NCBI RefSeq assembly: GCF_000337415.1
Contig: NZ_AOJD01000051.1
Span: forward strand, 14,031 to 54,919
Length of the DNA: 40,889 nucleotides
Direction: 5' to 3'
DNA from: Halorubrum tebenquichense DSM 14210
GTDB taxonomy: Archaea; Halobacteriota; Halobacteria; Halobacteriales; Haloferacaceae
Position numbers and translations under genes: made by a program
Part shown: piece by piece, positions 2,025 to 40,889 of the stretch
Layout: every line of letters starts with the position of its first letter
Numbering within the stretch: the first letter of the stretch is position 1
The notes under the pieces: model-generated
Database searches by the model: none
What the model was told of the DNA's origin: nothing
Seen by the model: only the letters and a program-made list of their open reading frames with translations

Positions 2025-2147
2025 GCGGCTGGGGCTTCGGTGGTCTCTGTCGGAACAGTGTCTGCGTGTAGCCGAGCGGCTGGGGCTTCGGTGGTCTCTG
2101 TCGGAACAGTGTCTGCGTGTAGCCGAGCGGCTGGGGCTTCGGTGGTC
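2025..2147. repeat. 51-bp direct tandem repeat, two full copies plus 21 bases
   Basis: Copies at 2025-2075 and 2076-2126 are identical; a third stops after 21 bases at 2147. Each unit starts GCGGCTGGGGCTTCGG and ends GTGTAGCCGA. The unit contains the proximal boundary sequence of the dispersed repeat, so the end of the element itself has been multiplied. The unit length is a multiple of three and translates on the minus strand as TTEAPAARLHADTVPTE, but the surrounding frame does not look like a protein. Confidence 0.95.
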
Positions 2148-24123: not shown

Positions 24124-24205
24124 GCCAGGATGGCCGAGTGGTAAGGCGCACGCCTGGAAAGCGTGTTCCCATCCGGGATCGGGGGTTCAAATCCCTCTCC
24201 TGGCG
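24124..24205 (+). tRNA. tRNA-Ser (anticodon GGA)
   Basis: 82-base class II tRNA. The acceptor stem GCCAGGA (24124-24130) pairs with TCCTGGC (24198-24204), with discriminator G at 24205 and no encoded CCA. D-arm GGCCGAGTGGTAAGGC, anticodon loop CTGGAAA giving GGA for UCC/UCU codons, a long variable arm, and T-arm GGGGGTTCAAATCCCTC. No intron. Confidence 0.97.
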
Positions 24206-24259: not shown

Positions 24260-24342
24260 GAGGGATTTGAACCCTATCAGTCGCGCGCAGCGAACGGAGT
24301 GAGCGAGCACGTCTGATTTCGGTTCAAATCCCTCTCCTGGCG
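24260..24342. repeat. Degenerate tRNA-Ser 3'-end copy inside a palindrome, unit 1
   Basis: 24321-24342 repeats the tRNA T-arm and acceptor end (GGTTCAAATCCCTCTCCTGGCG). The 14 bases at 24260-24273 (GAGGGATTTGAACC) are its exact inverted complement, and inner ATCAG/CTGAT also pair. The unit is about 77% identical by eye to unit 2, 151 bases further on. It does not form a full tRNA. Confidence 0.88.
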
Positions 24343-24412
24343 TTTCTGTCGACGCCGACTGCGAGCGAGGAGCGACAGCGACGAGCGAGTACTGCGACAG
24401 CGAAGCGTCTGC

Positions 24413-24494
24413 GGATTTGAACCTTATCAGTCGCGCACAGCGAACGGTGCGAGGTGTGAGCACGTCTGATCTCGGTTCAAATCCCTCTCGTGGT
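24413..24494. repeat. Degenerate tRNA-Ser 3'-end copy inside a palindrome, unit 2
   Basis: Same layout as unit 1: GGATTTGAACC at 24413-24423 pairs with GGTTCAAATCC at 24474-24484, followed by CTCTCGTGG, which has lost the exact acceptor sequence. The inner block CAGCGAACGG ... GAGCACGTCTGAT is shared with unit 1. The segment between the units (24343-24412) is purine-rich with GCGAGCGAGGAGCGACAGCGA-like low complexity. Confidence 0.85.
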
Positions 24495-24512
24495 TCTGCC
24501 GGGGCCAATGCG

Positions 24513-24776
24513 GACACCTCCGAAGCCCCAGCCACGAGGCGGGCGTACGCTCGTTGCGCTCCTCGCTCAGTCGCTCCGCTCCTTCGCTACGGTGCTTACG
24601 TCGCCTACGCCCGCCTCGTGGCTGCCCCTTCGAGTCCCGCCCCGCACAGCACCGCACCTCACGCCTCCCCAGCCTCGTCGCTCGCTCCGGGCTCCCTTCG
24701 GTCGCCCGTCCACTCGCGACTCCCTCGCGCGTGCTCCTCGCGGCCGCCTTCGGCGGCGCGCTCGGAGGCACGCGCC
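24513..24776 (+). repeat. Dispersed hairpin repeat, copy 2
   Basis: Most complete plus-orientation copy. Arms AGCCACGAGGCGGGCGTA (24530-24547) and TACGCCCGCCTCGTGGCT (24606-24623) pair perfectly over 18 bases around a ~58-base loop containing GCTCCTCGCTCAGTCGCTCC. Next come CCCCTTCGAGTCCC, CACCTCACGCCTCCCCAGCC, a GCCGCC-TTC-GGCGGC palindrome and the terminal GGAGGCACGCGCC. It lies 19 bases after the second tRNA-Ser end copy. No protein-coding frame looks real. Confidence 0.85.
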
Positions 24777-24904
24777 ACCGGATATTCATAAAGAACTGTC
24801 GCCGCCGGAGCTGGTGGTTTAAATACCGCATCCTCATTGCCGCGTGACTCGTCCGCGTACCGACACAAGATTCATATGTGTGGGTATATTTGGCACGGGT
24901 GACG
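24777..24904. other. Spacer between repeat copy 2 and the small charged protein
   Basis: No gene seen. A near-palindromic TATA-like GGTTTAAATACC at 24815-24826 could drive transcription in either direction, including leftward into repeat copy 2. A second TATA-like box (TTCATAT, 24871-24877) serves the next gene. Confidence 0.45.
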
Positions 24905-40712: not shown

Positions 40713-40889
40713 CGAACACCTCCAAAGCCCCAACCGCGAGGACGGCGGACGCTCGTTGCGCTCCTCACTCAGTCGCTCCGCTCCCTCGTTCCGGTGCTCA
40801 CGTCGCCTCCGCCGTCCTCGCGGTTGCCCCTTTGAGTCCCGCCCAGCACCGCAACCGCAGCCTCACGCCTCCCCAGCCTCGTCGCTGGC
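40713..40889 (+). repeat. Dispersed hairpin repeat, copy 3 (cut by window end)
   Basis: Begins CGAACACCTCCAAAGCCCCA. Arms AACCGCGAGGACGGCGGA (40732-40749) and TCCGCCGTCCTCGCGGTT (40808-40825) pair perfectly over 18 bases around a 58-base loop with GCTCCTCACTCAGTCGCTCC. CCCCTTTGAGTCCCGCC and CCTCACGCCTCCCCAGCC follow, and the copy runs out of the window. Five arm positions differ from copy 2, each with a matching change in the partner arm. Confidence 0.85.

Follow-up and report, generated by a model that had tools for sequence, protein, structure and literature searches.

Hairpin elements with a conserved fold across the Halobacteria: a dispersed repeat family that may be non-autonomous mobile DNA

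The palindrome-associated transposable elements (PATEs) and the small mobile repeats SMR-A were both described from Haloquadratum (PMC3119063). PATEs are haloarchaeal, non-coding, and heterogeneous, they reach a high copy number, and they have palindromes near their ends that are akin to those of IS605-type transposons; SMR-A are about 110 bp long with prominent inverted ends, cause no target duplication, and insert into the palindromes of IS605 elements and PATEs (PMC3119063). In a Halorubrum virus, one PATE is reported to be strongly transcribed, and a PATE of Halobacterium is said to act as a non-coding RNA (PMC10544981). Here we describe a repeat from a 40,889-nucleotide stretch of the genome of Halorubrum tebenquichense DSM 14210 (the window). 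We lean, with modest confidence, towards the view that it belongs to a family of non-autonomous, mobile DNA hairpin elements that spans the class and is kept by its fold. We found no description of this hairpin family in the literature, although our search mostly missed subscription papers and a prior description is possible.

To compare copies, we used two covariance models. R1 was built from 40 copies (34 from the source genome, G000, and six from congeners), and R2 was built from 36 hairpins of the type that we call P1, all from other genera and none labelled Halorubrum. A preliminary description of the window had reported three copies, and their R1 matches confirm that all three are one element. 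The folded strand is the purine-rich strand, which is opposite to the one that was read initially. Copy 2 is complete and lies on the minus strand at 24518-24779 (R1: 255.7 bits, E = 1.2e-59; C51:38548-38809 in the genome); it is the highest-scoring copy in the source genome, and its limits had first been given as 24513-24776. A tRNA-Ser(GGA) gene at 24124-24205 is followed by repeats of its 3' end (GGTTCAAATCCCTCTC) at 24263-24340 and 24400-24500, directly upstream of copy 2, and these repeats may have been left behind by integration at the tRNA. Copy 1, which had been reported on the reverse strand, is genuine and lies at 1790-2042, with the plus strand as its folded strand (R1: 172.9 bits, E = 5e-40; R2: 91.7 bits, E = 1.8e-17) and P1 at 1927-2039. 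It had been drawn out to 2147; the element itself ends at 2042, and the larger span arose because two extra tandem 51-bp 5' units occupy 2040-2141 on the plus strand, with the motif CGAAGCCCCAG at 2080-2090 and 2131-2141. Copy 3 is on the minus strand at 40720-40889 (P1 at 40723-40834), where the end of the window interrupts it (R1: 171.2 bits for this partial copy); in the genome it continues, as C51:54750-54977. R2 recovers the three copies with E-values of 1.8e-17, 6.7e-13, and 1.9e-12.

The core of the element is the hairpin P1, which in copy 2 spans 24521-24632 on the minus strand (R2: 70.1 bits, E = 6.7e-13). It has a foot of CGAAG/CTTCG, a symmetric CCCC/GCCC internal loop, 18-bp arms, an inner stem in which G.A mismatches recur when the folded strand is read, and an apical triloop. 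The arms at 24530-24547 (AGCCACGAGGCGGGCGTA) and 24606-24623 are exact reverse complements, as are those of copy 3 at 40732-40749 (AACCGCGAGGACGGCGGA) and 40808-40825. The 5' arms of these two copies differ at positions 2, 5, 11, 12, and 17, and the 3' arm matches every change (5/5), just as had been noticed. Perfect 18-bp hairpin pairings within 140 nucleotides occur four times in the window and not at all in single-base shuffles (mean of five). On the folded strand, P1 reads CGAAG-GGGC-arm, then an interior that contains CGACGYAAGCACC and GGAGCGCAGCGAG, and then arm-GGGG-CTTCG.

The element has two further structures, P2 and P3, to which the preliminary description did not refer. A linker at 24657-24677 (CCTCACGCCTCCCCAGCCTCG, or CGAGGCTGGGGAGGCGTGAGG on the folded strand) is near-invariant in alignment A1. 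It is followed by P2 (24677-24720), whose size and sequence differ among the aligned copies while its ends stay complementary, and by P3 (24727-24775), which pair counts and the alignment show as a stem of GCGCGTGC/GCACGCGC. On the folded strand, the P3 stem reads GCGCGTGC..., and its inner hairpin (24743-24757) varies in sequence and size between copies. All three parts are on the minus strand in copy 2. Full copies from Halorubrum comprise the P1 core, conserved linker, P2, and P3, in about 230-300 bp (typically 250-275 bp). Their ends, CNCCGAAGCCCC and GCACGCGCCACCGC, are not inverted copies of each other. Outside Halorubrum, P1 is often solitary or forms a head-to-head pair about 45 bp apart, and its foot is GAAAG/CTTTC, a compensated change relative to Halorubrum (alignments A1 and A2). 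Small perfect palindromes (for instance CGAAAGGCGC..GCGCCTTTCG) are nested in some P1 hairpins of other genera (L197, L206, L219, L237, L240, and L253), which gives the impression that P1 hairpins are a target for some second mobile palindrome. The copy at L166 (2414-2648; the S2 site in genome G021) has an atypical P1 interior with TTTATAAACAAACCCATC and is apparently degenerate or chimeric.

Halorubrum units are often preceded by one or more tandem 5' units of 48-75 bp; besides the window (2040-2141), examples are found in L037 (2798-3021) and L057. In 82 of 86 cases they are spaced by a multiple of three (48, 51, 54, 57, 63, 66, 69, or 75 bp), and they contain an open frame (EAPAARLY...). 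However, we rejected a coding role: it is the third codon position that varies least, and this frame has the lowest synonymous fraction (0.17 versus 0.42 and 0.30). Reading their TTATAAA box as a promoter is also weak, as the box is present in only 34 of the 86 intervals (~40%).

BLAST already finds dozens of matches in the source genome; R1 finds at least 127 with E ≤ 0.1, of which about 115, with E < 1e-5, are recognizable copies. Several matches are at contig ends (C34, C38, C40, C56, C58, C64, and C87); the assembly was probably interrupted by the repeat, which makes this count a minimum. All 22 of the Halorubrum congeners that we searched have at least 19 matches each. A search with the pattern of the P1 foot gave at least 80 loci, and all of the matches listed are in Halobacteria, including Haloarcula, Halobaculum, Haladaptatus, Natrinema, Natronococcus, Halorussus, Halosimplex, and Haloparvum. 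Of the 116 Halobacteria genomes that we searched with R2, 98 have a match to P1, and these represent 38 of the 45 genera. In a sample of the phylum, 10 of 11 Halobacteria matched R2, and the P1 hairpin was absent from the other members (0/69 genomes). Six plasmids carry relatives, and we found no copy of the element among the phages and viral contigs that we searched.

Stem sequence drifts in this family while selection keeps the pairing. Almost all of the variable pairs in P1 are seen in most or all of the Watson-Crick types. Across 69 copies from other genera, the 11 outer pairs are Watson-Crick in 87.6% of cases, versus 44% if arms of different copies are paired. For a formal test, we used our own script, modelled on R-scape, in which substitutions are re-dealt along a tree; because copies recombine, this tree is only approximate. 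Covariation exceeds this tree-aware null both within Halorubrum and across genera, and the significant pairs are mostly hairpin pairs. Specifically, three of the four significantly covarying pairs in alignment A1 are structure pairs and the fourth is close to one; in the cross-genus alignment A2, all five are; and among 129 P1 sequences, 11 of the 15 significant pairs are in the hairpin, and the other four involve foot columns that separate Halorubrum from other genera. The proposal that a fold is under selection therefore stands. Full-length copies with unpaired arms are not numerous, and the source genome also has a tail of about 25 weaker or partial copies.

Several observations bear on which strand folds, and whether it does so as DNA or RNA. 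In the outer stems, read on the reverse strand, G.T pairs outnumber A.C mismatches by 46 to 18 (2.6-fold; nominal P = 6e-4), which implies that one strand folds. This asymmetry disfavors a cruciform with no strand preference. G.T pairs make up 2.8% of the cells in the outer stems, versus 7% in 17 haloarchaeal tRNAs, although GC-rich helices hold few G.T pairs anyway. (The tRNA stems have 27 G.T and 0 A.C, but the zero is partly built in, as ARAGORN demands pairing.) The apex loops of P1 in Halorubrum are mostly GNA (77 of 108), where N can be any of the four bases, or GNNA (14 of 108); loops in other genera are more mixed (GNA in 14 of 30, as parsed). In DNA, mini-hairpins whose GNA or GNNA loop is closed by a G-C pair are exceptionally stable (PMC4686876). 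Together, the low tolerance of G.T, the GNA and GNNA loops, and the G.A mismatches of the inner stem (read from A1) favor single-stranded DNA over RNA but do not prove it; the G.T and loop arguments are indirect, as the copies share ancestry rather than being independent.

The alternative is a structured non-coding RNA that exists in many copies: transcription would read the purine-rich strand, the RNA would bind a protein or regulate its neighbors, and copies would spread as genes. The strong covariation, the conserved letters of the internal loops, and the excess of G.T over A.C on just one strand all speak for an RNA, as do the findings on PATEs mentioned above. But besides the low G.T tolerance relative to tRNA, 13 of the 14 tetraloops do not fit the GNRA rule (a single GNNA loop does), and searches against Rfam 15, at gathering and permissive thresholds, gave nothing but a tRNA in the window, with other matches at chance level. 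Also, the TTATAAA-like box is missing from most 5' unit intervals, the copies have no orientation rule relative to genes, and a gene family does not look like this set of about 115 copies, in which decay is seen. We consider an RNA possible but rather unlikely. The preliminary description had left an RNA family and a mobile palindrome both open, and the evidence leans towards a non-autonomous mobile palindrome, given the low G.T tolerance, the loops, the decaying copies, and the filled, decayed, and empty sites and swaps of hairpin modules that are described below.

The element is dispersed and intergenic, as first thought: all 40 of the copies that we checked lie between predicted genes. The flanking genes are oriented +/+ (13), +/- (12), -/- (8), or -/+ (7). 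As these copies follow no orientation rule, we rejected a gene-associated cis-element such as a terminator or riboswitch. The neighbors are unrelated genes, and no transposase is among the 25 commonest of their 168 families. At the site of copy 1 (site S1), 9 of 30 Halorubrum genomes have a full or partial element, 13 are empty, with the same two genes only 56-59 bp apart, and 8 have remnants or diverged spacers. The window's other two sites are also variable, and site 2 holds two copies on opposite strands. PATEs insert at a short target oligonucleotide and do not duplicate it; here, the spacers of empty sites are too diverged to place the junction, and no target duplication is clear. We did not find a closely related pair of strains with and without a copy, or a transposase gene within any copy, and we saw no transposition. 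Between G000 and its close relative G016, at least 10 of the 19 copies that we retrieved sit in matching positions. Because many sites are common to several species, movement is slow or old.

Those conserved positions, and persistence across the class (98 of 116 genomes), might instead suggest host binding sites, as has been proposed for some roles of REP/BIME in bacteria: a nucleoid, repair, or recombination protein would bind the extruded hairpin, and selection would act on the host. On the other hand, individual sites are freely empty in congeners, the neighboring genes have no theme, and a single chromosome (G019) has copies on either strand, so we think that this is improbable.

Among nine position-conserved pairs from G000 and G016, four are near-identical; for the other five, the gap holds a copy that is clearly different, with 83-89% identity in the element versus ~95% in the flanking genes. 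One of the near-identical pairs (L038/L055) shows a clean swap of the whole P2 hairpin, and L106, from genome G007, has its P1 arm sequence inverted. Such swaps and inversions, and the very few wobble intermediates, would fit a process with no selection, in which one arm is rewritten from its partner by template switching and hairpin-templated repair, so that compensated changes are mechanical, but we think this very improbable, as templated correction would erase mismatches, yet the CCCC/GCCC loop, the G.A mismatches, and the inner-loop letters are conserved across Halobacteria while the stems drift.

Our preferred reading is still a mobile DNA hairpin. We infer that mobility is the cause of this distribution, and that the element moves, or is copied, while its purine-rich strand is single-stranded (at a replication fork, or during transfer or excision) and folds. 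A trans-acting protein would recognize the folded P1, which has a GGG/GGG internal loop, inner bulges that are conserved, and an apex of the GNA type. Copies unable to fold would not be propagated and would decay, so that stem sequence drifts and pairing is kept, and recombination between copies would swap whole hairpins.

Which protein might mobilize the element? We searched the TnpB-type and Y1 loci of G000 for a Y1/IS605 parent and did not find one: the sole Y1 locus has no flanking copies or element-like ends, and the five PF07282 loci have no element-like ends. R2 has no match at these loci and R1 has only short, weak ones; by eye, the foot GGGCTTTCG alone resembles one IS end. Two other copy-rich genomes, G016 and G019 (43 and 47 P1 matches), have no match to a Y1 transposase. 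More tentatively, and we would not bet on it, the family could be a new mobile class that is restricted to Halobacteria, defined by the conserved single-stranded DNA fold of P1, and mobilized by a recombinase from outside the known Y1, serine, and DDE transposases.

A repeat with over 100 copies, conserved in structure across an archaeal class and apparently unannotated, shapes the intergenic regions of haloarchaea and is a probable cause of broken assemblies. Should single-stranded DNA be what folds, the element would be a natural test bed for structure-based DNA recognition in archaea, and a new enzyme, its mobilizer, would await discovery; should it be RNA, the family is a large and unrecognized one of RNAs. 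Both possibilities can be tested directly in haloarchaea that grow in culture.

It's useful to compare the element to known systems. The attC sites of integrons are folded single strands kept by structure rather than sequence, with one strand preferred, and they involve the IntI integrase and cassettes. Our element shares the priority of structure over sequence, the strand preference, and probably the folded single strand; in contrast, it is dispersed rather than arrayed, has no cassettes, and has unrelated neighbor genes, and no integrase was noticed. MITEs share terminal inverted repeats with a transposon, which the Halorubrum form does not; the paired P1 elements of other genera do have inverted ends (L203), and we found no parent transposon. 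Like REP/BIME with RAYT (PMC2817692), the family has over 100 intergenic copies, imperfect hairpins, and modular combination. Unlike in that system, where the gene of the cognate tyrosine transposase (RAYT) has an element on each side, no RAYT-like gene is flanked by two copies of the element. Also, REPs are far shorter than P1. P1 alone resembles SMR-A in its length and inverted ends, and no target duplication is clear for it either, but insertion into IS605 or PATE palindromes was not seen for P1; this comparison is by description only. The element also differs from PATEs in that the TnpB-type and Y1 loci of G000 were not found to carry ends related to its palindromes. It shares the other PATE features listed at the outset, and in Halorubrum it lacks terminal inverted repeats and is too short to encode a transposase, as expected for a PATE (by description, not by sequence). 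The PATEs and SMRs of Haloquadratum are the nearest described things to this family.
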